Part shown: positions 1 to 56,369 of the stretch, in pieces
Numbering within the stretch: position 1 is the stretch's first letter
How the letters are laid out: every line of letters begins with the position of its first letter
Assembly (NCBI GenBank): GCA_948144175.1
Contig: CANXME010002281.1
Coordinates: 234,501-298,500 of the forward strand
Source of the DNA: Closterium sp. NIES-65
Lineage: Eukaryota > Streptophyta > Zygnematophyceae > Desmidiales > Closteriaceae
Reading direction: 5' to 3'
DNA length: 64,000 bases
Made by a program: the position numbers and the translations under genes
Notes under the pieces: generated by a model
The model's database searches: none
Seen by the model: only the letters and a program-made list of their open reading frames with translations
What the model was told of the DNA's origin: nothing

Positions 1-3000
1 GGCTCAAAAGGCACACCAGTCCCCTGCCATTCTCTCTCACCTGATGTCGCTGCTGGGTGGAACGAGCAGCACTCCGCATGGCGGCTATCTCCCTCTTCAG
101 CATGGTTATCGCCTCCCCCACATGCAGCCCATGCAGGTCCAACACCCGCCAATAAACTTCTTCCCCCACCCCCTCTTCCGCTCACCTGCTGTCGCTGCTG
201 GGTGGAGCGAGCAGCGCTTCTCATTGCGGCTATCTCCCTTTTCAGCATGGGTATCGCCTCCCCCACATGCAGCCCGTGCAGGTCCAACACCCTTGCCTCT
301 CCTCCCTCGCCAGCCACTCCACCCAGATAGCCCGACGCCGCATTGCTGGGAAAAGGGCAGAGCGTGTGGGGGGGTTGAGAAACAAGGGAAATATGGGGGG
401 GTAAGCATGCAGCCCACGGAGGTTCTTCAACACCTGCGCCTCTTCCTCTTCGCCTGCCCCTCCACCCAGTATCAATAGTACGATCCATTAATGTCCATTT
501 TCACTGTTACTTTGCTGGGCCTACCAAGTTCTGAAGATGGCATCGCTGGCATTGGCGTGAGCTGCCTTCATCTGCTCGTTGTGCCACTGCCCCCGAGCGC
601 TCAGCCAAGTCAGCTCCTTGGCTGCTGTGCTTCTGCCTCATGCCCTCTCATACTCCTCTTTGCAAGCAAGCAAGCATGCAACCAACGGCAGAAGCAATAA
701 CAACAACAGCAGCAGCAGGATCCATACCGGGTTCGGAAAATGGCATCGCTGGCCTTGGCATGGGCTGCCTTCATCTGCTCGTTGTGCCACTGACCCCGCG
801 CGCTCAGCTCCTTGGCTGCTGCCTTGTTGCCCGCCAGGTACGCTTGCGTGGCCTGCACGGAGGAAAGGAGCAAGATAGCAAAGAAAGAGGCTTTGAGATC
901 GAAAGAGGCTTTGAGAAAGAAAGAGGCTTTGAGATCGAAAGAGGCTTTGAGATCGAAAGAGGCTTTGAGAAAGAAAGAGGCTTTGAGATCGAAAGAGGCT
1001 TTGAGATCGAAAGAGGCTTTGAGATCGAAAGAGGCTTTGAGAAAGAAAGAGGCTTTGAGATCGAAAGAGGCTTTGAGATCGAAAGAGGCTTTGAGATCGA
1101 AAGAGGCTTTGAGATCGAAAGAGGCTTTGAGATCGAAAGAGGCTTTGAGATCGAAAGAGGCTTTGAGAAAGAAAGAGGCTTTGAGAAAGAATGCAGACGG
1201 AATGACTAGGTGCTTCCTTGTTGCCCACTACACATGTTTGCATGGACTGCAGGTGGGGAATGAAGTAGAAAGAGAAAACACGAAAGCCAACAGAATCAGT
1301 GTACGAAGGAGGGGAAGAAGTGGCACTGACCTGCTCGAAGCACGCATTTCGTATTCTTGCATGGTCCCGCGCCTCTTCCCTCATGTCTCCGTATAGGTTA
1401 GCTGCATGAGAGGATACGATAAGTGGAAATGGAAAATAGTTTGGAGAATGCTAATTAAATGGTCCCAAGCCTCCTCCATGTCTCCATACAAGTTGGCTAC
1501 ATGGGGGGAAACTTTGAATGGACATGCGTAACAGATTTGAGAATGCTCAATACGGTGTCTCCCAGACTTCCTCCCCCATGTCTCCATACAGGTTCGCTGC
1601 ATGGGGAGAAAACGGTAAGCGCACGAAGATGGGTTATGAGGTGACAATAGATATCCTCCTGCAACAACATGCCACATGTCTGACTGAAAGTGCACCAGAT
1701 CACAACTCACCGACAGCGTTGCCAGTTTCCAGCCATGGCTGTGCTCCTCCTCTTCCTGAAAACTCGTACCCCCCCCCTCCCCCTCCTCCTCCTCCCCCTC
1801 CCCCTCCCCCTCCCCCTCTTCGCCCTGCTCCGCCCATACCCCCCTCCCCTCCCCCGCTTCTCTCCGCCTGCCCGCCCCCCCACGCGTTCTGAGTCGCTGC
1901 CCCCGGGGGTAACGGCTTTCGCAGCACCCCGGCGAAATCAGGAACAGAGCCTTGCATGGGGCGAGTGTCAGGGCCTTGAGAGGAGGGGCGCGGGCGGAGC
2001 ATGGGGGAGGAGGAGGCGGGGAGGGGGTCTAGGGGGGAGAGAGAGGGGAAGTCGAGAGAGTCGAGGGAAGGGGGGTGCGCTGAGGGGGGTGGGGGACGGC
2101 GGTGGGTTGGTGATGGGAGAGTCATTTCGTCCTGAAGCTGTGAAGGTAAGAATAAAGTAGGGGAAAAGGAAGAAGGAATAAGGAGGGGGATGGGGGGTGG
2201 GGGTGGAGGCGGTGGCGGTGGGCGCAAAGAGAGGGGTTTGCGCAATGTGACGTTTGGTGTGGTTACATGTATTCAGGATGAGAGCTGGCGAAGGTAAAAC
2301 ATATGTCAAGAAACGTCACACGCCCCAATTACAGTGCACCGCAGCATCATATACACCCCAACCGCATAGATTCCAGCTAAACCAGATTGAACCCATGCCA
2401 ACCGCAAAGCACACCTGCAGCTGGGTCAGGATCTCCATGGTCCGAGGAAGGTCTGCGCCATTAGAGAAGAAGATCTCTGCCAGGGTGCTTATACTGAACA
2501 TGGGGAACTCTGTAGCGAGTATGCGCACAGGATCGTGCCGATCGTCTCCGCCCACCCCTTCTTCCGGTCCCCCCCATCCAACTGGCATCGACATCGCTCT
2601 TTCTCTCACTCCCCCACCTTCCCCCCCCCACATGCCGTCTCCTCCCCCTGGTCCCCCCATTCCCCCGCCTCCCCCCATCCCTCCCCCCATCCCTCCCCCC
2701 ATTCCTCCCCCCATGTCCCCTCCCCCTGCCGGACCGGGGAGTTCAAACGGTGGGGGGTGCATGGCTCTCGGGTCAGCATTCGGGGGAGGGGGATAACCCC
2801 TAGCGGGGCTGTTGAAGGGGTGATGGTGTGGGGGAGGGGGAGAGGCAGCACCAGGCAACGGCATAGACATGGATGTTACAGGGTTACCACCAAATCGGGA
2901 GAGAGGGCCTCCGGGGGAGGCATAGGGAGGAGGACCCCTGGCAGGGCTCTGCTGCGGACTCATGTGGTTAGATTTAGGGTTAACCCCGCCGTATGGGGGG

Positions 3001-4605: not shown

Positions 4606-6375
4606 TTACTGTGTAGCAACCCCTTCTCGATCGTGCGTTGCTCTGCCCTGATTAGCAAGGCCAGAGCCTAACGGAGATGCCTGTAGTGAAGCGCTCTGTA
4701 ACGGAGATGCCGGGGATGCCTGCGCCTGCTCAGTCATCTTGAGCTTCTGCACCTGATGCAGCAGACCGTCCATGCTGTGCTCTGTGCCTCGCTGCATGCA
4801 TGAAGAGACACAGGGCAGCAGAGAAACACACACATAAGCGTGAATTGAGTAGTATTGAAACACTCTGTAGTGGGTACGCCTGGGCTGGCGGCGCCTCGGT
4901 CATCTTGAGCTTCTGCACCTGATGCAGCAGACCATCCATGCTGTGCTCTGTGCCTCGCTGCAACATGGGCATGGGCATGGGAGGACACACACAAGGCAGC
5001 AGACACACGCACAGGCGTGAGTTGCAACAAAGCCCTCCCATGCCCATGCCCATGGTGCAATGAAGCACTCTGTAACAGGACGCCTGGGCCCTGGGCCTTA
5101 GGCCTGCCTCTCCAACATCTTCAGCTTCTGCACCTGATGCAGCAAACCGACTTTGCTGTGCTCTGTTCCTCGGTGCACGCATGCAGACACACAGGGCAGC
5201 AGACACACACACACACATAAGCGTGAATTGAGTAGTAATGAAGCACTCTGTAGTGGGTACGCCTGGGGCTGGCGGCGCCTGCTCGGTCATCTTGAGCTTC
5301 TGCACCTGATGCAGCAGACCATCCATGCTGTGCTCTGTGCCTCGCTGCATGCATGCATGCATGCATGCGCCATGGGGCAAAAGAAACAGTAGCAGGCAAA
5401 CAAGCACGGACTTCACAATAAATAGCAGAAAAAAGAGACGCCTTACAACCATGTTGCACACATGATGACAGGGTGAAACGGACAGACAGAAATGTTCCGC
5501 AGCAAGGCAAGAATGCAAGCAAAATTTGAAACAATGGTAAAGCAGAACACGATGTGGATGAGGCAGAAAAGCTAATGTGTTCACAGGGAAAGGAAAACAA
5601 CTAGCGAAGAAAGAAAGCAAAGTATGACATACAAACAGGCTGGGCACGTCACAATAGTAGGAAGAAGGGGAAAGGATGGGTGGAGGGGGGTTGAGGATGG
5701 AGGAGAGGAGGAAGGGGGAGGATGGGGAGAGGGATTACTGACAGCAGGGGAGAGTCCGTGGGAGTCTACAGTTGTCTTGCGCTTTCGGCTGCTGGCAGGA
5801 GGCGCTGACTGGCTGGTGGATAGGCTGTAGCATGGGGAGAGTTCGAAGGAGAAGGAGATATGCAAAAGAAAAACATAGGTACGCAGTGCAAGTGAATATT
5901 GAAATGTTTCACACGGCTAGCTATGCATGTCTCATGGCACATGACGCATGACATGGCATGCGTTGCTCACTGCTGCCGAGGCGCGAGATACATGACATGG
6001 CATGGTACACTGCTCATCCGTGTCTCACTGGGTCATGATACATGCATGGCACGCATGGCATGGCACGGCATGGCATCGTATGGCATTGCTCACTGGCCGA
6101 GGTATGAGACGTAGTCATCCGTGTCGCAGCAGGGCGCGTCGAGAAAGTCGGACACCAGCCGCTTGACAGCGAGGTTGGCTCGTGGCGCATGGCATGTCAT
6201 GGCTCACTGCCTCGAGACGCACGGCATGGCATGACACGCGATGCATGGCATGGAAAAGCATGGCTTACTGGCCGAGGTAAGAGACGTAGTCATCCGTGTC
6301 GCAGCAGGGCGCGTCGAGAAAGTCCGACACCAGCCGCTTCACAGCGAGGTTGGCGAGCTTGCGGTCAGCAGCTCG
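4606..6375 (-). CDS. Unrecognised gene, 3' exons only
   Basis: I do not recognise this protein. Three joinable exons are visible on the minus strand. The first, about 6275-6375, contains AVKRLVSDFLDAPCCDTDDY and ends at gtaagc. The second, about 5742-5842, starts after ctacag, is Ser/Lys-rich (PPASSRKRKTTVDSHGLSP) and ends at gtaatc. The terminal exon carries HSMDGLLHQVQKLKMTEQA and ends with TAA at 4606-4608. Phases agree if the acceptor cacag before AGCACAGC is used. Substitutions between copies of the terminal exon are mostly synonymous in the LLHQVQKLKM frame, which supports that frame. The start and upstream exons are unknown. The gene lies just upstream of the CID7-like gene on the same strand, so these exons could instead belong to a distant 5' end of that gene, but the stop argues against it. 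Confidence 0.5.
4875..5355 (-). repeat. Three acceptor-side partial copies of the terminal exon
   Basis: Copies reading HS(M/K)(D/V)GLLHQVQKLKM lie near 4880-4960, 5100-5185 and 5290-5350, all upstream of the intact terminal exon (about 4606-4790). Each keeps the Tgcatgcag...cacag acceptor region and diverges after the TE(Q/R) codons. The spacers contain CACACA and GCATGC runs. Confidence 0.75.
6113..6375 (-). repeat. Two copies of an exon containing KRLVSDFLDAPCCDTDDYVS
   Basis: The copies at about 6275-6375 and 6113-6185 are nearly identical for about 70 bases. Differences are mostly third-position changes, consistent with coding constraint at some time. The upstream one has the better acceptor (gcaag); both keep the donor end (gtaagc, gtgagc). 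The spacer is rich in ATGGCATG-type repeats. Confidence 0.7.
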
Positions 6376-7409
6376 AGGCATCAGCGAGCCACACAAGCGA
6401 GCGGATTGGTAACACCGTAACACTGTCAGAAAACCCTATTTGCTGTTGGGCCAATATGAAGCTTGGTACAGAAGAGAGGAAGGAAAAGAGAAAAAGGCAA
6501 GATAAACGGAACCGCGATCAGATAAGTTAAACAATGAGGAGATCCCAATGTGAGGTGACTTGGATTGAAATGTACGTTGATTTTATACGCTGATGCCAGT
6601 TTAGATTCGCGCGTGATCGCGAAGGATTTGGAATTGCATCATCAGGCTGCTGAGGGACCGACGAAGGGGAATTCAAGAGGCTCAACAATGACCGGGAGGG
6701 GACTTGTGACAGAGTGAAACGAGAGAAGCGCACGAACGGCTCACGACGAAAGCATGGTGATTATGAGGGAGAGGCTGAATTCTGAGTCTGCTCAAAAGAG
6801 GTGGCCGAGGAGGGGAAGGCAACAGGGGACTCATAAAGTCACTGGGTGAGGGCTGTAGGAGAGGAAGGAGACGCTTTAATTAGCGTTCCTGGTAACGAAA
6901 ACTGACGGGTGGAGATAACGGAATTTAGGAGAATAATTGCTTACTCTGCAGAAGGAAAAGCTGGGAAAAGGCTGGCCTTCAGAGTGCTGAAATCAGTCAA
7001 TAAAAGTAAGAATGGCTTATGCGAATCCAAGGTATGAAGTTAGAGAACCGCAGAACTAGCCTAAACTGGTAGATCGCCACGCAAATTCGCGGAAGCACTT
7101 CCTGACAATTTGACCTACCAACTATTGTGCTTAGCTCATAAAAGCTTATGGCTGGCCATGGTGAAGCTCGACCATGCAAAGCAGTCCCAGCATGGCAGTT
7201 GGGAGCAGCAACTCCCAAGACAACTTCGGGGCTAACTTAGCCAAAAAAAAACAAGAGGCGAAGAAATCGTCTTAGGGTTGCGAAGCATTTTACATAACGA
7301 TATGTACACAAATTTTTACATTTTACATAACGACATGTACACAATTTTCTACAAGTGCGAATACTTTAATAAAAACCTGTGGTAATTGACATATATAGCA
7401 AGACTCGAA
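6376..7409. other. Intergenic stretch without a supported gene
   Basis: No exon with conserved-looking coding sequence was found. Two near-identical segments of about 30 bases sit in tandem at 7285-7350 (tacataacga(t/c)atgtacaca). Earlier bases may hold 5' exons of the gene ending at 4606, but none can be supported. Confidence 0.5.
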
Positions 7410-7492
7410 TAAGCAGCTTCAGCAGGATTCAAACCTACCTCCTTCATACCCAACGCCTTTTCCCTACCGACTGCACTAGCGCTACTGCACAG
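7408..7492 (-). other. tRNA-derived relic (SINE-like), minus strand
   Basis: On the minus strand there is an A-box-like TAGTGCAGTCGGTAGGG (7462-7478). About 35 bases further on, at 7422-7438, is a perfect T arm (GTAGG TTTGAAT CCTGC; 5-bp stem counting one G-T pair, 7-base loop). No clean acceptor or anticodon stem can be drawn. A working tRNA is therefore unlikely; a SINE head or tRNA pseudogene fits better. Confidence 0.5.
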
Positions 7493-8165
7493 AAAAGCAA
7501 CATGACTTTATAAGCTACATGACATAACGACGAATCTGACACTTTGTTAGGTTGTCTCTTCCTTTCATTCTCCCTCCCTTCCGCTCGCTGGTTTAGCTCC
7601 CCGCTACTCACGCCCCACCTACCCGTTCCTACTAAGGTGAGAACAACTCTACCTTACCGTTTCAAGTAGAATTAAGTTACCTGATTTCTAGCGAGACTAG
7701 CATGCGTTAATCTCGTACCATAGTTGTTTACTCTTGTGTTGGCCGCGTTTTAAAAAAATAGTTTGATTAAGCCTATGTTCTAGGTTCTAGGTATTCGTTT
7801 TCTCTTTCTCTTTTCTTCTCGCCAGTGGAGCTTGTTCTTTTGCCTCACGCTACTTACGCTCCACCTACCACTCCAAGGTCAGAAAGTTTAAGATGTCATT
7901 TAGAGTTGTTAGCTCATGGTAAGATGTAAGCTCTTATTGTCGTCATTTACTTCCTATTCTTAGTTAGCCCTCCCTTTCCTTCTTCCTCTCGTTCTGCTGA
8001 CGGGCTACGGGACTTCCGCTAGGTAAGCTCCTAACTTGCAACTTAAACGCGTTCGATACTTGTTAGGTCGACTTAATTCTAACACAGGACGGCTTAGATC
8101 TAAACTAGGTCGGCTTAGATCTTGTTTTTACACATGTTTTTTTTCGAAATCGTAGAAATCGTAAT
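7493..8165. other. Intergenic, no gene seen
   Basis: AT-rich and pyrimidine-rich sequence with no supportable coding region. Short recurring strings such as gctccacctac and gtaagctc appear, but I see no organised feature. Confidence 0.5.
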
Positions 8166-8465
<300 letters not shown>

Positions 8466-10020
8466 TCGTTGTTCTCGCTCTCTGTATTCGTTATATTCTC
8501 TTCTTTCGTTTACTGTCTCGGTATTTTGTTCCTCTATTCCCGTTCCTTATTTTCGTTTTATGCCTCGTTAGATTCTTCTCCATGCTCTTTGTCAAGTCTA
8601 ACCATTCAATGCTCACGGCGTTTTTCTTAGCCCTTGTATTGATTCATTTGTTTCTTCGTTATTCCTGTTTCTCTTCATTTCATCACACCTTATGCCTTTT
8701 TTCTGTTTTTTTTGTTGTACTGGCTATTCATTTCCGTTCCTCCTTTCCACTTCCTAAACCCGTTTGTCAGGGGCCTTTCCGGTCAGGAACGCGATTTCAA
8801 TCCAGAAAATGTGTATTGGTCACTAGGATTTATCGTATTGTCCTTTTAACATTGATTTACTTGTTATGTAGTTCGCGTGTATCTCGTGTTTTTTGGCTGG
8901 GTTTGCCGGAGCTCGTGTTTTTTATTGTGTGAATGTGTTTGTTCGTGTGAGTGCATTCATCTCATCTGTCATTGCAATATCAATGCATGTCTGTCAATTT
9001 TAAAAAGGGGGTTCATTTCTATCATTTCTAATTGGTTCATTGGCGCACTCAGTGACTCGTGTGTTTGCCACTTCGAACTGGATTTGATAGAGTGAACCTC
9101 TTTTTTAGAGTTAACAGATTGTATTTTTTCATGTGCTAGTTGATTATTCAAAGATTTTGCTATTGACCTCCCCCCCATGCTAGGCAGGGGATGGCGATAG
9201 CTTAGTTTTTGGGTTGTTAACTGTCACGCATTTTATCATGTGCATGTGCATCATTCATCACATATCACATGCATTATATACATCATTCTATGCATTATGC
9301 ATTGTATAGCATCATTTATGCATTACGCATGCACCTCTTCATCATTACACAACATCATCTAACAGTAACATATAATGCAAACAGTACAGCACATCTCCAC
9401 TAAACAATTGCAAAATGTTCATATGGAATAATGCACTATGAACAGTACCGTATTCAAAACTGCTCAACATGCATACAGTTTGGGAAGGGTAGTGCTGTAG
9501 TTGACAAAATTTATTTTCATGATTTTTTTAAAAAATATAAACATGAAAATAAAATTTGGCAAAATCGATCGTAAAGGGTTGCTTCGCAACCCAAAAAAAA
9601 AAAAAAAAAAACTCCCAAGACAAGAGGCCTGCTGCCTTTCCGCTAAAAAGCAGCCCCGTAGCGAATTACATACTAAAGTTTTCACTAACAATGTAGTACA
9701 CGATAAACTTTCCAGAAACATGTAAAGCATTGTAAGGTGTGTGTACGTAATTATTCGTATCAAGTTTGGACTCATAGATATCTAATTTGATCATCCAATG
9801 TCTCAATATAGGACATAATGCATCATAATCTCGATATAATATATTTCCTTCAATACGTAATCAAAACTGATCCATGAAGCAATAGTTAAATATTATTTTA
9901 TATTCATATTGTTATATAAAAATTCTTAAATGTATATTTATGTATTGGTAATATATACTAATATGCCCGGGTAATACTAAATAATCAACTACCATATTCT
10001 CGTATCAAATAGCTTAATTC
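8466..10020. other. AT-rich intergenic DNA
   Basis: No coding evidence. It contains GCATTATG/CATCAT-type short repeats (9235-9345). A small hairpin, GGGTTGC-ttc-GCAACCC, at 9577-9593 is followed directly by an A run (9592-9610). A very AT-rich block lies at 9830-10000. Confidence 0.5.
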
Positions 10021-10770
10021 ACTGTGGTACGGAATGGAGCAGCTCTTATTGCCGTTAATTCATCCGAGTTCCCGCCAAAAGGGAGCCTGCTCCACCTCGA
10101 GATTACTGCCGCACCGCCTTATCAATTCACAGCATCGCCGCTCCATTACACCAACCGCCATTACAACCATCAGTCATCTCGTCGCTTTCTCACCTTTGCC
10201 TCCTAGCCAAGTCTTGCTTTCTCCTAACCAAGCACCTCGTCAGGTCAGCTCCAAGTCCAAGCGTCACCATGGCGCCGTTCCGATGCGTAAGCGCGCGGTC
10301 ACCGCCGCGCGCAACGCTTCCGCACAGTCGAAGCGCGGTATGTCGTTCGAGCTTGCCTCCTAGCGGTACACAATGCGACAGACGACAGATGGCAGGTCGC
10401 CCCCACGTTCCGCTCCGTGAATCACGGACAACGCCGCTCGTGCGGCGAATAGTTCAAATGCTTTGAATTTCTAACGACGCGAGAAAATAGTCCACCTGGG
10501 TCACAATACCTCATTATTCGCCAGCTTTTCCATATCAGAAGCTGCGAAGGCGAAAGTGACGTCGCGCAGCTGGTCGCACAGGTCGCCGCAGAGATCATCG
10601 CATAGGTCGTCGTGCAGTTTGATGAGGTAGAGAATTGATCATCCGTTTTTTCAGGCGCCTCAAAGCTCAATGAAGTAGAGTATTGATCATACGCGTCACC
10701 GCCGCCGAGTTTCGAGATTTCTTGTGAGTTCGGAGACTTCTTGTGTTCTAAGAATCCTCGGGACTTCTCA

Positions 10771-10788
10771 TTTTGAGACGTCTCAAAA
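10771..10788. promoter_or_regulatory. Perfect 18-bp palindrome, dispersed family
   Basis: TTTTGAGACGTCTCAAAA, fully self-complementary, about 650 bp upstream of the modelled COBRA-like start. The same motif recurs in introns of two genes in the window. The regulatory label is only a guess; it could equally be a hairpin element or insertion scar. A weaker relative (AGGCGCCTCAAAG) lies at about 10650. Confidence 0.5.
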
Positions 10789-11436
10789 CTACTCTTTTTA
10801 CACGTGTTTTGTGAGTTAGGAGACTTCTTGTGATCGCTGAATCCTGGGGACTTCTCATTAACTGTCGTGCAGTGAGATTCAACGATCGGTCGCGCCGTCT
10901 TAAGTGTCATCGGCCTCTCGAGGCCGCAGTGCCACTGCTAACGCCACCGCGACCATCATTACCACCAGCATTATTTAGAAACGGCGCACCTACTGCAGTC
11001 AATTCACAAGCAACAGAGGGAGCAATCGAGAATGAGATTAGGAATTCTGAAGGGGATACGGCCGTCCACGGACTCCATGATGGCACGATCAACGGTTAGG
11101 ATGCCACGAACGGCGCCGCTCCCATCATCACCATCGATTGCATCATCATCGCCGTCGCCAAAGTCACCCCCGTGCGACTTTAGTCGTCTAGAGGAATTCC
11201 AATTTCACTTGGCGGATTTTGGCAGATGGGAACACCAAGAAACGCCTGGTTTGGTGCGGCATGAGAAATCTGATGAGACTTTTGGGAGGAGCGAAGAAGA
11301 GGTGATTGGTACACTCTGCATGGAAACTACAGAGATTGTTGCTGAGATGAACGTGGGGGGATTTGTGAAAAGGAATCTGGAGGTTGTTGAGTCCAGTCAG
11401 AAGTATGGAGGTGTTGTTGAGAGGGATGAGGAGCAG

Positions 11437-14400
11437 ATGGGCAAGAGACGCGTGAGAAATGGGAAGGAACGGAGAAAAACGAACAGCAGTGACGTCACGC
11501 GCGGCGCTATAACAGGAGGAACCCTCGCCTTTGTCACCCTGCTGCTGATGTCAGTCACGTCGACATTAGCGCAGGCATCACCTGCACCAGCACCGCCTTC
11601 CCCTGCAACACCCCTCAAGTCCTTATCATCAGCAGCAGCACCGCACTTCCTTGTCTCATCACCAGCACCACCACCACCCACCCCTGCATCTTCAACAGCA
11701 GCAGCAGCAGAAGCGGCAGCAGAAGCAGAAGCGATAGCAGACTCTTCCGCTGCAGCTCACATTTCGTCAGTCCCAATTGGTGCGGGCAGTGGTCCTGATG
11801 CTGCTGTTGGTGATGCTGTGAGAAGCGATGTCATGGCAAGTGGTGCCACCCTTCTTGCTGGTGAGTTTTTGGGAAGCATAGGAGGAGGAGAGAGGGGGAA
11901 GTACTCGAGGGTGATGGGGGAAGGGAGGGGAGAAAAAGGGTCAGGAGAGAGGGTCAAGAGGAGGGGTAATCTCGTCTTTGGGTTTCCTTACGAGAGGGCC
12001 ACAGCAGGAGGGAAAGGAAGCTTGCTGTATTCTTTGACTCAGTGCTGTTTCTCACACGTTATCTTGGCTCTGATTGTCCCCATTCACTCCCCTTTCTACC
12101 CTCGTCCCTCCCACAGCCAACCAGTCAGACACCATCCCCGACCCGATAATCCGCCCGCCCCCGACCAGCCCCTTCTCGCTCTCCCCCCTGCCGCCTCCCA
12201 TCCGCGGACCCATCGTCCCCGCACCCCCCGCCCCGTGCTTCGGGGTCACGGTGGCCTATGTGATAGAGAGTATCATCAACATCCCGTCTGTGTGGAATGG
12301 GAGTGTGAAGCCGTATGGGTTCAAATCCAAGATCGAGCTACTCAACACTGGCAAGAGGTCAGAATCTTTCTTTCCGCCATCTTCTTCTTCCTCTTCTCCC
12401 CCTCCTCCTCCCCCTCTTCCTGTTCCTCTCCTCCTTGCTGCGAGGTCACGGTGACCTATGTGATAGAGAGCATCATTACCATTCCATCGGTGTGGAATGG
12501 GACTGTGAAGCCATATGGGTTCAAGTCCAAGATCGAGCTACTCAACACCGGCAAGAGGTCAGGTCCCGTTCTTAATCTCCTTTCCCTCTACGTCCTATCT
12601 CTGTCCATGCAACAAGCAACAAGAGACTAGCAACTAGGAAACAAAAAGAGCTCTTATAAAGGAAAGGAAACAAAAACCAAAACGTTTAACAATAAAATGC
12701 CATGTTTCCCATGTTTCTCACCACCAAGACCAGGTGGGGTTGTTGGAGGTGAGAATGGATTTCACCTGCAACGAGCTCCCCTCACTCAAATCTTACCATG
12801 TTTCACTCCTCTCTCGTCTTGTCTCTCTTCGTACCTTGCACCACTGGGACCTGGTCGGGTGGGAGGTGAGGGTGGAGTTCACTTGCAACGAGCTCATCAC
12901 TCCACTGTTCCCCCTTGCGTCCATGTGCTTCCCCAACCCTCTCAAACTCTCTCAACCCATCTGAACCTGTGCATGACAGGGACCTGGTGGGATGGGAGGT
13001 GAGGGTGGAGTTCACTCGTAACGAGCTCATCACGCTGCTGGGGAACACTCAAGTGGAGTTTGAGCTGCCATACCCTGGTGAGAGGCCGTACCCAGCGCGG
13101 TGAGGTGCGATAGGCAATACACTCCCTCTGTTCTGCATCCTGCTTAATTGCCCTTTCTGGGGTGAGCTACCACCCACGACTTTTGGGACGTCTCAAAAAC
13201 TGCCCATTCTGGGGGTGAGCTGCCAGCCAATGTGTGATTGAACAAGCACACGAGGACCTCATTACTCTGCTGGGCAACACTCAAGTGGAGTTTGAGCTGC
13301 CATACCCCCTGGTGGGTAGGATGCCATCCAAGCTACCCCATCACTGCACTGAGGCAATAAGGGGCTCCTCTTTAACCCCATCTCACATTACCTGCCTCTT
13401 TTCCCCCATTCCTTCCTTAAGTCGGTTTTTGAGTCGACTCAAAAACCTACCCCATCACTGCACTGAGGCAATAAGAGGCTCCTCCTCTCACATTACCTGC
13501 CTCTTTTCCCCCATTCCTTCCTTAATCCCCCCCCTAGCCCCTGCCATTCCCCCCACAGGCTCCTCACTTCTGTTCTCCAGCATTGACGAACAGAGCGGTT
13601 GACTCATCACTGTACACTAAGAGAGGAGGAGTCCCACACACACTACCTGCCTCTCCCCATTTTTCCCCATTCCCCCCTTTCCGCTGCACCCACAGGCTCA
13701 GCGCCGCTCTTCTCCAGCAGTGACAACCAGAGCGACCGACTCATCACTACACTGAGGGAATACTGGTCACCAGGGGCGCTTACACTACCTCCCCCCTTGT
13801 CATTGCCGCTCCCCCCTTCAGGTTCCGCGCTCCTATTCTCCAGCATTGATGATCAGAGCGACCGCCTCATCACGGCAATCCACGCGGGCGGCGACGTTCG
13901 GCAGTATGTGGTGTTTGCGGAGGTGTTTGGCACGGAGTTTGGGGCGGCGACTGCTGGCAAGGCGCTCCCGCGCACACTGTACCTCACGACACCAGGTGGG
14001 TGGGTTTTGAGACGTCTCAAAACTCTTCTTTCTTCACAAGGCGCTCCTGCGTACACTCTACCTCACGACACCAGGTGGGTGGGTTTTGAGACGTCTCAAA
14101 GCTCTTCTTTCTTCACAAGGCGCTCCTGCGTACACTCTACCTCACGACACCAGGTGGGTGGGTTTTGAGACGTCTCAAAACTCTTCTTTCTTCACAAGGC
14201 GCTCCCGCGTACACTCTACCTCACGACACCAGGTGGGTGGGTTTTGAGACGTCTCAAAACTCTTCTTTTTTCACAAGGCGCTCCCGCGTACACTCTACCT
14301 CACGACACGAGGTGGGTGGGTTTTGAGACGTCTCAAAACTCTTCTTTTTTCACAAGGCGCTCCCGCGTACACTCTACATCACGACACCAGGTGGGTGGGT

Positions 14401-17400
14401 TTTGAGACGTCTCAAAACTCTTCTTTTTTCACAAGGCGCTCCCGCGTACACTCTACCTCACGACACCAGGTGGGTGGGTTTTGAGACGTCTCAAAACTCT
14501 TCTTTTTTCACAAGGCGCTCCCGCGTACACTCTACCTCACGACACCAGGTGGGTGGGTTTTGAGACGTCTCAAAACTCTTCTTTCTTCACAAGGCGCTCC
14601 CGCGTACACTCTACCTCACGACACCAGGTGGGTGGGTTTTGAGACGTCTCAAAACTCTTCTTTCTTCACAAGGCACTCCTGCGTACACTCTACCTCACGA
14701 CACCAGGTGGGTGGGTTTTGAGACATCTCAAAACTCTTCTTTTTTCACAAGGCGCTCCCGCGTACACTCTACCTCATGACACCAGGTGGGTGGGTTTTGA
14801 GACGTCTCAAAACTCTTCTTTCTTCACAAGGCGCTCCCGCGTACACTCTACCTCACGACACCAGGTGGGTGGGTTTTGAGACGTCTCAAAACTCTTCTTT
14901 CTTCACAAGGCGCTCCCGCGTACACTCTACCTCACGACACCAGGTGGGTGGGTTTTGAGACGTCTCAAAACTCTTCTTTCTTCACAAGGCACTCCTGCGT
15001 ACTCTCTACCTCACGACACCAGGTGGGTGGGTTTTGAGACGTCTCAAAACTCTTCTTTTTTCACAAGGCGCTCCCACGTACACTCTACCTCACGACACCA
15101 GGTGGGTGGGTTTTGAGACGTCTCAAAACCCTTCTTTTTTCACAAGGCGCTCCCGCGTACACTCTACCTCACGACACCAGGTGGGTGGGTTTTGAGACGT
15201 CTCAAACCTCTTTTTTTTTCACAAGGCGCTCCCGCGTTCACTCTACCTCACGACACCAGGTGGGTGGGTTTTGAGACGTCTCAAAACTCTTCTTTTTTCA
15301 CAAGGCGCTCCCGCGTACACTCTACCTCACGACACCAGGTGGGTGGGGCTTTCTTACCCACGACCAAACGGCCCCTCGACTCAACTTACTTCACCTGGCA
15401 CCTGTTGCCCAGGGTATAGGTGTGTTCCTCTTTCAAGACATCGTGGATTGTTTCCGTTCAAGCTCCAGCATGCAATGTCTCAAACACTGGTTGCATTGGT
15501 GGGGTAAATAAGCCACATGTAGCCCGCTCATCTCTCCTCCCCTTCTTCCCTTCTCTGCTGCAAACTTTTGCTGTGTGTCAACCTTTCCCCCATCAATCCA
15601 AGGACCTTCTGAGATCTCTCTATCGCTTCTGCTTCCTTGCCTATCCTCCCACCCCTCTGTCTCCCCATCCCTACTTTCCCCCTTCCTATGCAGGCTTCCA
15701 CTGTGCATCCAACCGCCCTCAGTTCCCGTCTCCCAACAGGATTCAGGTGAGCTTGCAAGCACGAACATTTTTTGGCGGCACCTCAAAAATAGAATCCAGC
15801 CGCCCTCACTTCCAATCTCCCAACAAGATTCAGTTGAATGCATAGAAGGGCACCTGTTTATCCCTGACAGCACGTGAATGCATAGAAGGGCACCTGTTTA
15901 TCCCTGACAGCACGTGAATGCATAGAAGGGCACCTGTTTATCCCTGACAGCACGTGAATGCATAGAAGGGCACCTGTTTATCCCTGACAGCACGTGAATG
16001 CATAGAAGGGCACCTGTTTATCCCTGACAGCACGTGAATGCATAGAAGGGCACCTGTTTATCCCTGACAGCACGTGAATGCATAGAAGGGCACCTGTTTA
16101 TCCCTGACAGCACGTGAATGCATAGAAGGGCACCTGTTTATCCCTGACAGCACGTGAATGCATAGAAGGGCACCTGTTTATCCCTGACAGCACGTGAATG
16201 CATAGAAGGGCACCTGTTTATCCCTGACAGCACGTGAATGCATAGAAGGGCACCTGTTTATCCCTGACAGCACGTGAATGCATAGAAGGGCACCTGTTTA
16301 TCCCTGACAGCACGTGGATGCATAGAAGGGCACCTGTTTATCCCTGACAGCACGTGAATGCATAGAAGGGCACCTGTTTATCCCTGACAGCACGTGGATG
16401 CATAGAAGGGCACCTGTTTATCCCTGACAGCACGTGAATGCATAGAAGGGCACCTGTTTATCCCTGACAGCACGTGAATGCATAGAAGGGCACCTGTTTA
16501 TCCCTGACAGCACGTGGATGCATAGAAGGGCACCTGTTTATCCCTGACAGCACGTGGATGCATAGAAGGGCACCTGTTTATCCCTGACAGCACGTGAATG
16601 CATAGAAGGGCACCTGTCACCCGTACCTCACTTGAATCCGTGCACTTGTTTGCTCTAACTCCCACTCTCAAACCGTGTACTTCTCAACCCTCAAACACAA
16701 GTCTGCTCTGCTACGTAATGTGCCTTGCTTAAAACCTTTCCTTTCCCTGTTGCTGACTCTTCTTTTATTCCCGACTCCCCATTCCCATCCAATCCCCCTC
16801 CTCTCAGGTCTGCTGCAAAGAAACCGCCTATCCGCCTCCCCCTCCTCCTCGCCCCCCTGCCCGCCTTCCCCCAGTCATCCCAGCTTTAACGGTCCAGATC
16901 GACGTGACAGCAGCGAGCGATCTGGACCATCAGATGCTCGTCACGATCCGCAATCTGCAGGCGGACAGGCGTGTTGGGCCCCCAAGACACGAGCCGTGGG
17001 CGCTCAGCTGGCGATGGACTCAGAATGAGGTGTGGGAAGGGTGTAGAGTTCAAGGTGGGGAGGGAATATGGTGTAAGCAGAGGACGGTTTGGGATTCAAT
17101 TGTGAAAGAGAAGAAACCTATGACCCCCTTGGAGCAATCTTTTGAGACGTCTCAAAAGCCATGTGTATGCAGAAGTGTTTGGAGACGTCTCAAAACACTT
17201 CTTCATACACGTGTAAGCAGAGGACGGTTTGGGATTCAATTGTGAAAGAGTAGAAACCTATGACCCCCTTGGAGCAATCTGCAGCCCGACAAGCTTGTTG
17301 GGCCAAGCAATCTGCAGCCCGACAAGCTTGTTGGGCCAAGCAATCTGCAGCCTCCGAGGAACGACTCCTGGGCGCTCACCTGGCGACGGACGCAGAATGA

Positions 17401-32400: not shown

Positions 32401-32735
32401 CCCCCTTAACTGCATGCAACACTAGTTAGAGTAGGGGCGCTCTACCCGCACTGCTGCAATCACCAAGCAGCAGCTTGAACCACCGTAGTTGAACCCATAT
32501 GGCAAGTGCCCGGTTGCGGTTGAACCCCCGCAACAGGTGACGGTGTACGCGACAAGGGGCGACCACGACCAGAAACGACAGAACGAAACGAAACAAAACG
32601 AGAGAACGAGTGGTATCAGGAGCAAGTGATGCGAGGAGGAGGAAAAAGAAGAGGGAACGGGTGTAGCGGAAGGTAGAGGGGGGACGCGAGAGAAACAAAA
32701 CAAGATACTCTCATCCTCACTCAACCTCGTCCCCT

Positions 32736-32762: not shown

Positions 32763-33039
32763 GGCAACAAGTGCTGCAGGGAGAGAGGAAGCGAGAGGGG
32801 AGAAACGGGCTGCTGACTGTGTCAAACTCATATGCTATAGTCTGTGTAGGTTGTAGTGGGGTAGACAATATGGGGTACAACACTTCTAGGTTTTCCTACT
32901 TGTACCCACCTGCTTGCTAGTTCATTCATTCCTCATTTCTTCACATGGTATAAAGCAAGTTCCTTAGTGGGAACGCTTCCTTGGGCCCACCACTGAAAAT
33001 TTCCTTTCTGACCGGAGCGCCAGTCGCTCCTGCCCGAGG

Positions 33040-33930: not shown

Positions 33931-33984
33931 CCGGCCCTACTTACTCGGACTGGTGAGCTCACTCCTTCCTAGGCCACTGCAGTC

Positions 33985-39858: not shown

Positions 39859-40242
39859 CCCTTTTGTACGATGTTAGGTTTTGTGCCTACTTGGCCTCAC
39901 TTGCTCACTTCTTGACCTTGCTTGTACTGTGATCTTTCTATACCTGCACTTGCTTGTTTACCTTTATGTATGATCTTGCATGTGAACTGGCCTTTTGGCC
40001 TTGCTTTAGTGCTTAGAGTGTGTGGTGACGTTGTGATCCACCCTGAGCTTGCTTTGCTTTGCTTGACTGGTCTTGTGACCTCTTGTTCTCCCCCACTTTG
40101 CCTATGGGTGTGTGTCAAACTCATATGCTATAGTCTGTGTAGGCTGTAGTGGGGTAGACAATATGGGGTACAACACTTCTAGGTTTTCCTACTTGTACCC
40201 ACCTGCTTCCTAGTTCATTCATTCCTCATTCTTCACAGACTG

Positions 40243-50891: not shown

Positions 50892-53800
50892 TCACATGTG
50901 GCTGCCTGTCGGTGCTGCACTCCCCATGGCAGCAGCAGCGGCGGCGGCTGTGATGGCAGCAGCATGTGCTCTCGCTGCTGCCATTGCCATGTGCGCCCCT
51001 CGCCCTATGCCCATGCTCGCACCAGCACCAGCAGCAGCAGCAGCACCGGCAACGCCACCAGAAGCACCGCCAGCAGCTGTGGCAGCGCCAGCAGAACTAG
51101 CAGCACTCGCAGCGGCTCCTGCTGTTGATGTTGCTACTCCGGCTGCTGCTGGTGGGGCGTCCGCAACAACCTGGTGGAAGGGGGTACAGGCCAATGCAAA
51201 TAGGTGGGATGCGGTGACTGTGGGAGTATTTGAGTGAGAGGCCAATGGCAATCGTCCTCCCTTTCCCGCGTCCCTTGAATCTCCCATGTTTTCCTGCCTC
51301 TTTCCCCAACTGATCTCATTGAATCCGTACCTTATCCCACTTGCGCCTCATTCCGCCTCTTGTCAATCCATCCCCAATAGCAGTAGCACCAGCAGCACCA
51401 GTGCCTCCCCTCATAACACCAGGAGCCAAACCCATTATGCCCGCTCCCACAGCAGCAGCAGCAGCTGCACCTGCTGTCGCCATTGCCCCTCACTGTACCC
51501 ATTGTTCCCCTTCCCCTGCTCTCAAACCCTCAACCTCAATCCCTTTCAACAAAAACATACCTTATCCCATTTGCTCCTCTTTCCGCCTCTTGTCAATCCA
51601 TCCCCACCTTCAGCGGCACCGGTGCTTCCCCTCATAACGCCAGGCGCAGAACCCATTATGCCCGCTCCCACACCAGCAGCTGCTGCACCCCCTGCTGTCG
51701 CTGCCCCCATTGCTGCTGCCACTCCTGCTGTTGCCGCTCCTGCTGCTGCTGCGGCCCCTGCTGCCATTGGTTGCCCAGGTGCCATCACCCCTGCTACTCC
51801 TGCTACTGCAGCATCTCGAACGCGCTGAGTTCCTGTTTTGGAAGATGGGAAACACAGGGGAAAGACTTTCTTCAGGCACATCAAAACTCCTCCTGCTGCT
51901 GGTGGTTGCACAGGTACAGACGCCACCAATCCTGTCCCTCCTGCTAATGCTGCTCCTCCTGCTGCTGTAGTTGCAACATCTGGAACAGGTTGGGCTCCTG
52001 GTTTGGCAGATGGGAAACGCATGAGAAAGGCTTGCCCCAACACTCCTCCTAGTGCCACCATCCTGGTGTCACTCCTGCTGTTTCGGCCCCTGCTTTGCCA
52101 CCCCGCAAAAAACTCTATCTACCCGCCCTTCTGCCTCTAATGTCATGTGGCACAGAGCGGTGCAGAGAGATGCAAAGCAGTGCACTGTACCGCTCTAGTC
52201 AAGCAGACAATACCTTTGGGCGGAGCAGCAATGAGCTGCACTGCTGCACCACAGTGGTGCCCTCTCATTTACTTATGTGGTAGAGAGCGGTGCAGAGTGG
52301 TGCACTACCTTTAGGAGGAGCAGCGATCACTTGCACCACAGTCTGTCAGAATTATGTTTATTATAACTGCATGTAGTTCTAGCTGTAGTGTAGTTATTAA
52401 ATTTGTAGGTGGTGCACCTCTTCATTTGTTTCCTTTGCTATATGTACTTCGAAATCTATAGTGAAACCTCATTCTCCCAACTTCTCTTCCAACTCACTCG
52501 AACCTCACCCTAGGCAAGAACTACTCGACACCTAATCTCGGGCCTAGGCTCCTAAGCCTAGGCCCTAGTTTCAACTTAACTCAATCCTCGTTCAACTATT
52601 TTCGACATGGTATCAGAGCGACATTCGTCCTGGCCTGTGGGCCCGCCTCATGCTTCCGCTGCTACGCTTTTTCGGTCGCGCGCCTAGGGCGCGTGGCGAA
52701 TTTTTATTGTCCCGCCCCCGGGCGTGTGACTCCTTATCTGCCCGTCGCGCGCCCCGTGGCACGCGACGGAGCCCTAAATCTGCCCGTCGTGCGCCCCGTG
52801 GCACGCGACGGTGCCCTGCTCGTCGTGCACCCCGTGGCACACGATCGGGCCCTACACTTACTCTTACCCGTCGTGCGCCCCGTGGCACGCGACGGGCCTT
52901 TCTGCACCCGCTCTCCATTCAGCCGCCCCTGAGCTACCCGGTCCAACACATTGAAGCCGTTCTGCGACTTTCTTCCCGCCCACCCCCTCCTCCATTTTCT
53001 CCCTGCAGCCGTGGGGGGGAGGGTATGGGGGTGGCGGGTGTTGGGGTGTTGGGTCGTTCACTTCCCTTCCCCTCCTCCTCCTTTCGTTCCCACTGCTGCA
53101 GCTGCCGCTGGGGGGGAGGGTGTGAGGCTGTGGGGGAGCAGGGGGAGAGGCACCGGGGTGGCGGGTGTGAGGCAACCAGCAGCCGTCCCTCCACCTCTCC
53201 TCTCTTCCCCCCCTCTCTGCTGCTCCTGCAGCGGTGTGGGGGAGGGGAAGGAGGAGGGTGAGGAGATGGAGGGGGTAACCATTCAAAGTTAGCCCGCCTG
53301 CAGTACCTGCTGTTGCTTGTTTTATTGTTTGTTGGTGTACCTCTGCAGCTTGTGCTCTGCACTTAGCTATTCCTGCATGCAGTTACGGGGGGATGTCAGA
53401 ATTATGTTTATTATAACTGCATGTAGTTCTAGCTGTAGTGTAGTTATTAAATTTGTAGGTGGTGCACCTCTTCATTTGTTTCCTTTGCTATATGTACTTC
53501 GAAATCTATAGTGAAACCTCATTCTCCCAACTTCTCTTCCAACTCACTCGAACCTCACCCTAGGCAAGAACTACTCAACACCTAATCTCGGGCCTAGGCT
53601 CCTAAGCCTAGGCCCTAGTTTCAACTTAACTCAATCCTCGTTCAACTATTTTCGACACAGTCCCCCCTCGTTGGAACTCCATCTGCCTGCCCTTTTGCCT
53701 CCTCTCCTGCTCCTTCCACTCCATCTCCCTCCTTTGATCTGCCAGTGCCTACCCCAAGGGCCATCAGCCATGCCCAAGGGGGTGCAGAGAGATGCAAAGA

Positions 53801-56369
53801 GGTGCACCATTGCAAAAACGTTACCTTTAGGAGGAGCAGCTATGAGCTGAACCACAGTGCCCCCTCGCTGACACTCTATCTGCCCGCCCCTCTGCCACTA
53901 CTCAACGGTCATTCCCCTATGAACAAGCAGTACCTTCATGCGGAGATGAGTTGTCTAGTGTGGCACAGAGTGGTGCAGAGTGGTGCAATACCTTTAGGAG
54001 GAGCGGCAATGAGTTGCACAACAGTGCCCCCTCGCTGAAACTCAATCTGCCCGCCCTTCTGCCTCCTCTCCTGCTCCTTCCGCTCCATCTCCCTCCTCTG
54101 CTCTGCCACTGCCACCAGGGCTCACACACATACAGGAAACGACTTTTGGAACGTCTTGAATATAATCGATCACTAAAACAGTTTCGAGGCGCCTCAAAAC
54201 AAAACCCGACACCAGCGCAGGGGCGCACATGCAGCAAGCGATTTTGAAACGTCATCAATAGATCACCAAACCAGGCATACTTGTGTCCGCATGTTTGAGT
54301 GTGGTACCATGGTAAAGCTTTTGAGTCGACTCAAAAGCAGAGCATGGTAAAGCACGGGAAGCCAGGACCAGCAACCCAAGGGCGCCATAATGGTGCGTGG
54401 GGGGAACAACGAGACCATAAAGGGGGGGGGGGGGGGGGGGGGGATGCGGGGGAATGGAACCGGCATGAGGGAGGAATGGGGGGCAGCATGGTTTGAGATG
54501 TCTCAAAGCCAGGCCAGCAAACCAAGGGCGCCATAATGGCGCGTGAGGGGAACAACGGGACCATAGGGGAGGCATGGGGGCGGAATGGGGGGCAGCATGG
54601 GGATAAGCATGGGGTTAAGCATGGGGGGCAGCATGGGGGGCGGCATGGGGGGCAGCATGGGGGGCAGCATGGGGGGCGGCAGAGTAGCCAGTGTACCAAG
54701 AGCGTCCTAGTAGTCTAATCGGTTAAAGCCATGGGGAGTCTAGTCTTGAGGCGCCTAGAAAAATAGACCGAGTGAGGAGAACAGGCCAGCGTACCGAGAG
54801 CGTCATAGTAGTCTAATCGGTCAAAGCCGTGGGGATTAAAGACGTCCTTAGGAAAACAGGAGCCGTGCTCGTCTATACCCTCATGCTTCACGACCTGTCG
54901 TGGAAGAGGGTGGGAAATCAACAAAGTGTGAGGTTGGTATACCAACAAACAATGCGAGAGTGGAGAATGAGAGAGTGGAGAATGAGAGAGTGGAGAACCA
55001 GCAGTGCAGTGCATGAGAGGGAGGACGAGACTAATTGTGAGGCGCCTCTAAAACCGTGAGAGGTTGGTAAACCAACAAACAGCGAGAGAGTGGAGGAGAA
55101 CCCACAGTGCATGAGAGGAAGGGCGAAGGAACTATCTGTTTGGGAGTGCAGTGCATGAGAGGGGGGAAGGACAGATAAGTCCCATGGCCCCATCATCCCA
55201 CACTTGCTGCATAAGCCTCAATTTCTTCACCCCCCTGCTGCATCAAGTTAGGGTTGCGATAGCCCTAAAAGTCGCGTACATTCACACCTCTCTCCATTCC
55301 CCCCAAACAACCCCCCCTCCCCCCATCCCATTCACACCTGCTGCATGAAGTCAGGGTTGCGGTAGCCCTTGGAGTTCCTCAGAGCGTCGTTGATGCTCCT
55401 GCCAACCCTCCTCCACCCACCCCAACACGCCCAAACCCATCCCTTTCCCTTCACCACACCTGTTGCACGAAGTCAGGGTTGCGGTAGCCCTTGGAGTTCC
55501 GCAGAGCGTCGTTGATGCTCCTGCCGGCCCGCTTCAGCTCCAGATACCGGATAGACTTGGCCTGCAAGCACCAATCACAGCATGCCACGTGGCAGATACG
55601 TGATAAAATTGGCCTGCCACCACCAATCACAACACGCCACGTGGAAACATGGAGCGCTCTATAGGATGTGCAACGAGAACCTTATGCACAAAGCGGACTT
55701 TCACCCGTGCTCATGCTGAAAGGGCAAATTAGCAACACAGAAAAGACTTCTTAGTTTAGCCGAATCCCTCCTCGTTCCCTCTTCCCTCTCTCAAACATTC
55801 TCCCTCTTCCCCCCCTCCTCCCCATTCCCTTCCCCTCCATTCCTCCCCCCTCCCCCCAATTCCTCACACTCACACCTGAAGCTGCACTGAGCTCTTTTCT
55901 CGTGGCAAGGGCGGCAGAAACCCTCTCAACGCCTCCTCTACCTCCTCCTCCCTTCCTTGTCCTTCCCCACTCCCCTCGTTTCCCGCTTACAAACCTGAAG
56001 CTGCTCTGAGCACTTTTCTCGTGGTGGGGGCGGCAAAAACCCTCTCAGCGCCTCCTCTACCTCCTCCTCTTCCTCCCCCCCTCCTCACCCCCCCGCACCC
56101 CCCTCTCCACCCCTCTCAACACCCCCCCCTCCTCTCCCCTCCCCGGCCATCTCCCCTTCAGCCCCTACGTCTCCTTGCATAGTTCCATTCAAAGGTGGCG
56201 TGAGCTGTCCACGTGGCGCAATGCCATTAGCTGCTGCTAGGACCGCCACGTCACCGTCCACCGAGCCAGGTGGGGAAGGAGTGATCCGACCAACAATGGG
56301 TGTGGTTCGGCCAACGGGGGGAGAGAGGATATGCACCGAGCCTGGAGTGGCACGGTTGGGGGCTGGCAT
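50892..56369 (-). CDS. SAP30BP/HCNGP-like nuclear regulator
   Basis: Exons (minus, 5' to 3'): about 55995-56055 (ALRGFLPPPPREKCSEQLQ), 55460-55561 (ELKRAGRSINDALRNSKGYR), 54795-54894 (DEHGSCFPKDVFNPHGFDRL), 53992-54108 (RREMERKEQERRQKGGQIEF), 51561-51832 (Ala/Gly-rich, ending GGKRSKWDK) and 50892-51170 (Ala-rich, ending SHM and TGA). Phases agree throughout. The blocks NSKGYRNPDF, KDVFNPHG, RKEQERR and KSKWDK in this order are diagnostic of the HCNGP/SAP30-binding-protein family (nuclear, linked to transcription repression and splicing). The N-terminal part is uncertain: a frame from ATG 56369 (PGSVHILSPPVGR...) is plausible but its join to the PPPPREKC exon meets an in-frame TGA. The last two exons are unusually Ala-rich. 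A TRIM element sits in the 2.1-kb intron. Confidence 0.85.
51329..51470 (-). repeat. Donor-side copy of the KSKWDK exon
   Basis: It repeats GAGIMGLAPGVMRGG-like sequence through LTRGGMRRKWDK with a gtacgg donor, downstream of intact exon 51561-51832. Confidence 0.8.
51855..52030 (-). repeat. Acceptor-side copies of the Ala-rich exon
   Basis: Copies beginning at accag/GAGCCCAACCTGTTCCAG (about 52000) and near 51930 precede intact exon 51561-51832. They repeat its first about 40 bases (AQPVPDVATTAA versus TQRVRDAAVAG). Confidence 0.65.
52140..53890 (-). repeat. Donor-side copies of the GGQIEF exon, one split by the TRIM
   Basis: Copies of the exon 53992-54108 end (IEFQRGGTVVQLIAAPPKG/gta) lie at about 53820-53890. 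Another spans 53663-53720 plus 52305-52338 (interrupted by the TRIM), and one lies at 52215-52265. All are downstream of the intact exon. The spacers share GTGGTGCAGAG(T/A)GGTGCA strings. Confidence 0.8.
52344..53657 (+). mobile_element. Young TRIM-type non-autonomous LTR element
   Basis: The LTRs at 52344-52607 and 53394-53657 (264 bp each) begin TGTCAGAATTATG and end TTTTCGACA. I see a single difference between them (CTCGACACC versus CTCAACACC). A 5-bp target duplication CAGTC lies at 52339-52343 and 53658-53662. The primer site TGGTATCAGAGCG directly follows the left LTR and a purine tract (ACGGGGGGA) precedes the right LTR. The 786-bp interior has no gag or pol; it contains a CGTGCGCCCCGTGGCACGCG-type 24-33-bp repeat. 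It must be mobilised in trans. Confidence 0.95.
54421..54443. repeat. G homopolymer and following GGGGGGCAGCATG repeats
   Basis: About 23 G residues, then (54580-54672) tandem GCATGGGGGGCAGCATGGGG units of about 14-15 bp in the intron between exons 54795-54894 and 53992-54108. Confidence 0.9.
54690..54742 (-). repeat. Donor-side copy of the KDVFNPHG exon
   Basis: It repeats HGF(D/N)RLDYYDAL with the same gtacgc- or gtacac-type donor, about 60 bases downstream of intact exon 54795-54894. Confidence 0.8.
55222..55405 (-). repeat. Donor-side copies of the NSKGYRNPDF exon
   Basis: Two copies, at about 55338-55405 (SINDALRNSKGYRNPDFMQQ, gtgtga donor) and 55222-55262 (shorter, more diverged), lie downstream of intact exon 55460-55561. 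Confidence 0.85.
55870..55945 (-). repeat. Copy of the PPPPREKC exon
   Basis: It reads ALRGFLPPLPREKSSVQLQ with a gtgtga donor, downstream of the version at 55995-56055. The conserved Cys is replaced by Ser, suggesting that the upstream copy is the functional exon. Confidence 0.75.

Follow-up and report, generated by a model that had tools for sequence, protein, structure and literature searches.

The window analysed here is a stretch of 64,000 nucleotides of Closterium sp. NIES-65 DNA, located within contig C1983 of an assembly of 874 Mb in 2400 contigs. Four interrupted genes were modelled in it (Table 1), namely a COBRA-like gene, a minus-strand gene of the PAM2/DUF1771/Smr type, an HCNGP-like gene and a multicopper-oxidase-like gene. 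The 13-exon COBRA-like model yielded a single open frame with the stop codon TAG, and the PAM2/DUF1771/Smr-type model was open after refitting of one splice site (A2). Pfam matches were obtained to COBRA (E 2.5e-26) and COB_C, to DUF1771 and to HCNGP, and the matches listed included neither a PAM2 nor an Smr domain; these two labels of the minus-strand gene A are those that presumably apply. By reading, the HCNGP-like gene has more exons down to about 51 kb. The window also contains two 7-kb retroelement-like copies (32820-39873 and 56866-63938), 88% alike, with related stretches at 43-49 kb, as well as a 40-bp array within an intron (15835-16617) and a 20-bp array after the COBRA-like stop codon (26056-26423).

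Table 1. Genes, partial exon copies, arrays and palindrome-containing duplications in the window
Feature	Position	Strand	Remarks
PAM2/DUF1771/Smr-type gene	186-6381	-	8 exons A1-A8; continues past the window's left end
Exon A6 acceptor-side copies, n=2	1459-1619	-	exon alignment
Exon A3 acceptor-side copies, n=3	4852-4962, 5056-5212, 5235-5355	-	exon alignment
Two insertions upstream of COBRA-like gene	10622-10857	+	palindromes 10648, 10771; direct repeats 24 bp, 49 bp
COBRA-like gene	11032-25947	+	13 exons B1-B13
COBRA-like exons B1-B4	B1 11032-11860; B2 12117-12357; B3 12980-13077; B4 13822-13995	+	
COBRA-like exons B5-B8	B5 15694-15746; B6 16808-17029; B7 18265-18534; B8 21534-21686	+	
COBRA-like exons B9-B11	B9 22207-22663; B10 22947-23116; B11 23640-23754	+	
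COBRA-like exons B12-B13	B12 25026-25132; B13 25732-25947	+	
Direct duplication	13333-13525	+	palindrome 13427-13444 between copies
79-bp x 17.6 array after exon B4	13958-15347	+	
Young insertion	17071-17279	+	69-bp target (68/69 identical) flanks 71-bp insert 17140-17210 with two palindrome cores
Exon B7 acceptor-side copies, n=3	17738-17866, 17898-18010, 18098-18208	+	exon alignment
Exon B7 donor-side copies, n=3	18569-19064	+	exon alignment
24-bp x 74 intronic array	19080-20861	+	1.8 kb, nearly all missing from contig C461
Exon B8 acceptor-side copies incl. 122-bp units	21020-21466	+	exon alignment
Exon B8 donor-side copies, n=2	21769-22098	+	exon alignment
Exon B10 donor-side copies, n=3	23182-23476	+	exon alignment
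Exon B11 donor-side copies, n=3	23846-24205	+	exon alignment
Direct duplication	24264-24545	+	99/122 aligned columns identical; spacer palindrome 24407-24424
Exon B12 acceptor-side copies	24651-24725, 24730-24823, 24854-24933	+	exon alignment
Exon B12 donor-side copy	25205-25300	+	exon alignment
Exon B13 acceptor-side copies, n=2	25347-25661	+	exon alignment
Multicopper-oxidase-like gene	26967-30432	-	approximate limits; read from open frames
Oxidase duplicated pair	28933-28972 / 29045-29084		decayed palindrome (4 errors) at 29002 in spacer
Whole-exon copy of C4	52276-53749	-	split by LTR-flanked insertion 52344-53657; pairing by reading
HCNGP-like (SAP30BP) gene	53992-56369	-	exons C1-C4, rough model
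HCNGP-like introns	54113-55172	-	palindromes 54182, 54319, 54491, 54744, 55035; direct repeats 11 bp (54319) to 129 bp

Partial exon copies and their polarity

Each exon, together with 40 bp of flank, was aligned against its own neighbourhood and the copies were tallied without self matches, exons B1, B9, A4 and A5 having been excluded beforehand for matches that were absent or of low complexity only. In the COBRA-like, PAM2/DUF1771/Smr-type and HCNGP-like genes, 23 of the 26 upstream copies start at exon position 1 or 2 and none keeps the donor end alone, and 27 of the 31 downstream copies lying outside the 79-bp array extend to the exon end, with a single one starting at exon position 1 and thus showing the wrong polarity. 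The array holds 16 further copies of exon B4, and the donor end is kept in all 16. These counts confirmed the consistent polarity that an earlier note had claimed, in which copies upstream keep the acceptor side and copies downstream the donor side.

By reading, the copy of wrong polarity (53657-53749) belongs with 52276-52342 on the far side of an LTR-flanked insertion, and would thus be one piece of a broken whole-exon copy. The insertion itself is a small LTR-type element whose direct ends, 264 bp each, are 99.6% identical. Copies of an entire exon including its two splice sites, as known from mutually exclusive exon duplication, were otherwise lacking among the 57 tallied non-array copies, the one case being this broken copy of C4. 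The other exceptions to the polarity are internal fragments (17608-17666, 406-469 and 52096-52137), weak matches at 67-69% (C1 247-333; C4 9-78) and one copy that ends 8 nt before the end of the stop-codon exon.

The copy numbers given in the earlier note were reproduced for exons 7 (three before, three after), 10 (three), 11 (three) and 12 (three and one) of the COBRA-like gene; for exon 8 the two downstream copies were recovered, whereas upstream five matches, one of them at 62% identity, stood in place of the four reported. The exons named there as DUF1771, Smr, NSKGYRNPDF and GGQIEF (A7, A8, C2 and C4) do have such copies, and the KSKWDK exon lies, by reading, outside the gene models. Among the tallied copies, identity lies between 62% and 97% and points to differing ages, in line with the same note.

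Local direct duplications cover 28% of gene region A, 54% of B and 33% of C, and were absent from order-2 Markov shuffles (three per region) and from control contig L001. Chance as their source was ruled out by the shuffles. The oxidase gene region holds one duplicated pair, amounting to 2% of the region, exon A2 has no copy and A4 low-complexity matches only in the exon-to-neighbourhood alignment, and the intergenic stretches 6401-10500 and 30501-32700 contain zero local duplications. The proposal that copies occur in all five interrupted genes was therefore too strong, as four were modelled, one of them with that single pair.

Geometry, presumed selection and continuing change

For a tandem duplication of which one break falls within an exon and the second within an intron, the polarity follows automatically from geometry: duplication from intron into exon gives u..m u..m..d, and from exon into intron a..d..v m..d..v. 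It is thus automatic for tandem events, as it would not be for dispersed ones, and what requires explanation is the missing within-exon and whole-exon classes. A model of random placement, based on 47 duplication lengths taken by hand from the exon alignments, gave 34% within-exon, 6% whole-exon, 24% acceptor-side, 24% donor-side and 10% intron-only events when introns were capped at 200 bp, and 16%, 3%, 12%, 12% and 57%, respectively, with the present introns. In the window, within-exon duplications are short repeats only and a whole-exon duplication is found once. This suggests purifying selection as the simplest reason for the two near-absent classes, mutational bias being an alternative; if within-exon and whole-exon duplications are mostly purged, the polarised class would accumulate.

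Mismatches between exons and their non-array copies amounted to 183/1472, 138/1472 and 321/1466 at codon positions 1, 2 and 3 (12.4%, 9.4% and 21.9%), a spectrum near the 1:1:2 expected when the intact exon alone is constrained, and the copies thus look unselected as far as the sequence can tell. That they are functional decoy or alternative exons, selected for splicing regulation, we regard as very improbable: many of them, by reading, retain GT or AG and adjoin exons, but the mismatch spectrum fits an unselected copy beside a constrained exon, copy number varies between near-identical contigs, and the identities are widely spread. As the main reading, functional exon copies were ruled out by this codon-position test.

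Over the 22 kb compared, which lie outside gene C, contig C461 is 99.8% identical to the window, with 38 mismatches in 22,359 aligned bp (three blocks). It carries four donor-side copies of exon B7 as compared with three in the window (+168 bp), is without one acceptor-side exon B8 unit of 122 bp (21199-21320) that is identical to its neighbour, and shows smaller length differences of 25, 19, 12, 12 and 4 bp. The strain comparison advocated in the earlier note was thereby run in part, and C461 was found to differ in the number of exactly such copies. Judged from these two contigs, the duplication process is apparently current and copy numbers are still changing; as the differing copies of exons 7 and 8 sit in pre-existing repeats, the differences may represent gain or loss of units and not new breaks. 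An assembly artefact is extremely improbable as a source of the copies: the assembly is a draft and repeats are prone to misassembly, but many bases distinguish the copies from one another, the two contigs have nearly all of them in common over the 22 kb compared, and the empty and filled sites described below align cleanly. Other near-identical contigs in the assembly are C14/C975, C1769/C926 and C21 with C1907 and C1792 which, like C1983/C461, are about 0.1-0.7% different and represent either haplotypes or recent duplicates. Stretches L055 and L056 differ by 13 mismatches in 3071 bp, without indels of 4 bp or more.

Elsewhere in the genome, proteasome subunits were searched for with Pfam; 44 exon matches resulted, a number that includes contig pairs, and seven stretches were sampled. 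Partial copies lie beside 7 of 11 exon hits in six of the seven stretches; since L064 had been picked because the listing already hinted at a partial copy, five of the six other stretches is the fairer figure, and the second exon hit of L064, itself a copy, was left out of the count. With exon limits that are HMM hit ends and hence approximate only, nine of the ten upstream copies start where the hit starts and six of the ten downstream ones extend to its end, with no wrong polarity on either side. L067 yielded zero copies and L066 one good copy plus two weak internal matches. In the gene of L065, by reading, one exon has three acceptor-side copies, all with the same last codon. Local duplication covers 53% of L045 and nothing of L044, two random 10-kb stretches. 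The genome-wide process postulated earlier is upheld in that proteasome genes elsewhere obey the polarity rule; its extension to all genes would be too strong. Short tandem duplications with a breakpoint inside an exon, the origin first suggested for the pattern, are supported by the geometry, the proteasome genes and the second contig alike. By reading, one exon in L022 on C21 also seems to have a second copy that is complete, which adds to the exceptions to the polarity.

Palindromes between the copies

Some of the duplications hold a palindrome, TTTTGAGNCGNCTCAAAA, between their copies, an insert that had been overlooked before. Scanning for this motif outside the array and the retroelements gave 14 places matching at least 14/17 (0 expected), and a scan allowing indels gave 11 places at no more than three errors (0.25 expected). 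With the exception of the palindrome at 6780, where a flanking duplication is absent, the palindromes are flanked by direct repeats of 11-129 bp, making twelve spacers. The unit of the 79-bp array, by reading, consists of the end of exon B4 with its donor (about 44 bp) and the palindrome with one arm (about 35 bp). Within the retroelement-like sequence, no palindrome at up to four errors was found in 23.9 kb and no local duplication in 3.1 kb.

Palindromes differed from random positions in an unanchored test (p 0.0018) and in an anchored test at score 15 (10/11 as against 251/600), the separation being modest because duplications are dense here; the argument rests instead on the tests at score 18, on the flanking duplications at genomic palindromes and on the empty sites described below. 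At score 18, 10 of the 14 motif hits passed, compared with 23.8% of 1500 positions; the failures were 17140 and 17178, which have a common 71-bp spacer and pass jointly, 6780, and 54319 with its 11 bp only. As six palindrome duplications and the array had been noticed before the motif was defined, the seven motif-only places were also considered separately, and five of these pass score 18. Of the 13 young duplication clusters in the window genes, three contain a palindrome; none of the six clusters in the proteasome stretches and none of the three in the two random stretches does so, and 43 of 93 do at loci chosen for palindromes. Palindromes as the cause of all duplications were ruled out by the first of these figures. 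Since they accompany a minority of young clusters, most partial copies need ordinary tandem duplication only, or else their insert has decayed.

In the whole 874-Mb assembly, TTTTGAGACGTCTCAAAA occurs at 5,047 and TTTTGAGTCGACTCAAAA at 13,080 exact places, and the reversed strings at none. Together these are 18,127 places, contig pairs and arrays included, a count that covers the two versions and not the centres TTTTGAGNNNNCTCAAAA as a whole. We analysed 38 loci around the first places listed, which were chosen for their palindromes and are thus not a random sample. Of the 67 non-array clusters in these loci, 50 are accompanied by a flanking duplication and 17 are not; the corresponding shares at random positions are 33.5% (n=820) and 26.7% (n=600). 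A strict test (direct repeats of at least 15 bp at 90% identity) was passed by 27 of 52 single palindromes and by 234/1460 and 164/1000 random positions, 16%; the target duplications measure 17-103 bp (median 39) and the inserts 18-58 bp. Self-complementary centres were found in 73 of 80 palindromes, and the families differ symmetrically at the centre. Arm positions 10-17, counted from the centre, of 44 ACGT-centred palindromes are 50.6% complementary, compared with 32.4% after swapping of arms among loci (maximum 42% in 2000 shuffles), and the two halves thus vary together.

Thirteen palindromes with a near-identical partner contig listed were compared with that partner, L018 being without one. 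At three, the partner lacks the palindrome and has the target once: letter by letter, the filled sites are longer by 78 bp and 95 bp (L013 versus C975) and by 59 bp (L027 versus C1907), with target duplications of about 37, 55 and 57 bp. As palindrome and second target copy are missing together, insertion and duplication must have come together, and in the palindromic subset a single-copy ancestral allele thus stands opposite the duplication at three sites. At L022:1490 the partner holds an extra 59-bp unit of target plus palindrome, indicating that the composite can multiply into arrays; the remaining nine palindromes were called shared from an equal or near-equal span, not letter by letter. 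Head-to-tail arrays built of palindromes were also seen at L021:3179-3971 (36 bp), L030:2388-2820 (48 bp) and L042:2001-2127 (42 bp), and minisatellites may be born in this way. In L031, where a GatB-domain exon has an acceptor-side copy, a palindrome plus one arm occupies the break of that copy. Near position 2001 of L022, by reading, a complete exon copy holds a palindrome with a 41/41 target duplication and an apparently intact copy lies just downstream, which raises the question whether a duplicated exon was disabled by insertion.

The empty sites bear on whether slippage and unequal exchange alone produced the copies, as chance-seeded repeat expansion with incidental palindromes. This we consider unlikely, even with the B7 and B8 contig differences being unit changes in existing repeats and 10 of the 13 young clusters in window genes being free of the palindrome; it is contradicted for the palindromic subset by the three empty sites, and the excess of flanking duplications in the strict test speaks against it as well. 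An equally doubtful reading is that the palindromes are remnants of larger DNA transposons, whose terminal inverted repeats were joined once the interior had been deleted or excised and whose target duplication was unusually long. It would account for the conserved core, the centre families, the target duplications and the high copy number, and inverted symmetry in a multi-copy family, as in transposons and MITEs, was indeed found; but it seems improbable that deletion should have led to an identical centre in thousands of cases, and in place of the fixed short target duplication of such elements the lengths, 17-103 bp, vary far more than transposases are known to produce. Less likely still is target-primed reverse transcription by a LINE, in which a short self-complementary RNA would make palindromic insertions: variable target lengths and one-arm, truncated inserts would fit, but the 27 strict-test inserts, their ends judged by reading, are cut on either side of the core with no shared tail apparent beyond it, and mirrored arms are not expected from simple reverse transcription. 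A scan of viral contigs gave one unrelated match, and a plasmid search gave none.

Proposed mechanism and relation to known systems

We conclude that, with high probability, frequent short tandem duplications, which are still active, leave polarised dead fragments, a subset of them being target duplications of palindromic insertions. Gene regions would undergo frequent tandem duplications of tens to a few hundred bp; where a segment ends in an exon and the adjoining intron, an intact exon would remain with a fragment upstream bearing the acceptor or downstream bearing the donor, most within-exon and whole-exon duplications presumably being removed by selection. The fragments would then drift as unselected DNA, and the repeats would gain and lose units, up to arrays. 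For the subset, the duplication would be the target-site duplication of an inserted 18-58-bp palindrome with core TTTTGAGNCGNCTCAAAA and mirrored arms. The variable target length may reflect joining at widely staggered breaks with fill-in, and we prefer the reading that such wide staggered breaks capture hairpin-forming DNA. It is tentatively suggested, with rather more doubt than confidence, that the TTTTGAGNCGNCTCAAAA palindromes represent minimal mobile DNA of a new class, self-complementary over 18-58 bp with halves copied from one another, which inserts at staggered breaks while duplicating tens of bp of target, was recently active, leaves polarised partial exons and seeds arrays.

If the proposal holds, one genome offers natural experiments by the thousand, its exons having their own splice sites repeated around them at varied distance, and splice-site choice, i.e. 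exon versus intron definition, becomes directly testable; correct splicing amid decoys both upstream and downstream would point to exon definition. Intron growth, the birth of minisatellites and change of gene structure would likewise be tied to one continuing process. The empty and filled sites, at which a palindrome was inserted and a long target duplicated in one event, reveal a kind of mobile DNA that we could not match to any described class, and we found no description of the palindrome motif, of similar elements or of the exon pattern in the open-licence literature, beyond which print may differ.

MITEs are short, of high copy number, with inverted symmetry and a target duplication of a fixed few bp, and lie near genes. 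The present elements resemble them in all but the length of the target duplication, and differ further in their size of 18-58 bp, most of it palindrome, internal sequence being scant or absent. Introners, too, are mobile, invade genes in large numbers and duplicate their targets; unlike them, the palindromic insertions gave no sign of creating introns here. Schiml in 2016 reportedly described small tandem duplications from staggered-break repair, and Vaughn and Bennetzen in 2014 are said to have described such duplications at rice insertions. Head-to-tail copies of a local segment, a feature of this kind of repair, were found here.

Paired nicks and end joining yield tandem duplications through overhang fill-in at staggered breaks, with tens-of-bp copies at breaks with complementary overhangs, a signature called abundant in genomes (PMC8355091). 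The copies here are alike in being tandem and tens of bp long, and are unlike in being dense in genes and, in a subset, in having a recurring palindrome between them that occurs thousands of times. In the potato RdRp gene, an intron was gained by tandem duplication under the Rogers model, the duplicate comprising the 3' side of an intron and the 5' side of the next exon (PMC4974935). This is the anatomy of an acceptor-side partial copy; the potato event made a new intron, whereas here existing introns seem to lengthen and the fragments look dead, the gene models, drawn from the DNA alone, reading through with the copies inside existing introns. Copy-number variation in Closterium is treated in PMC10407611. 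The Short Interrupted Repeat Cassettes (SIRC) of Arabidopsis are direct repeats around diverse, low-copy spacers (PMC10342631); short direct repeats around a spacer are common to both systems, but in the present genome it is the spacer that is conserved, as the element itself, and the local target that forms the repeats.
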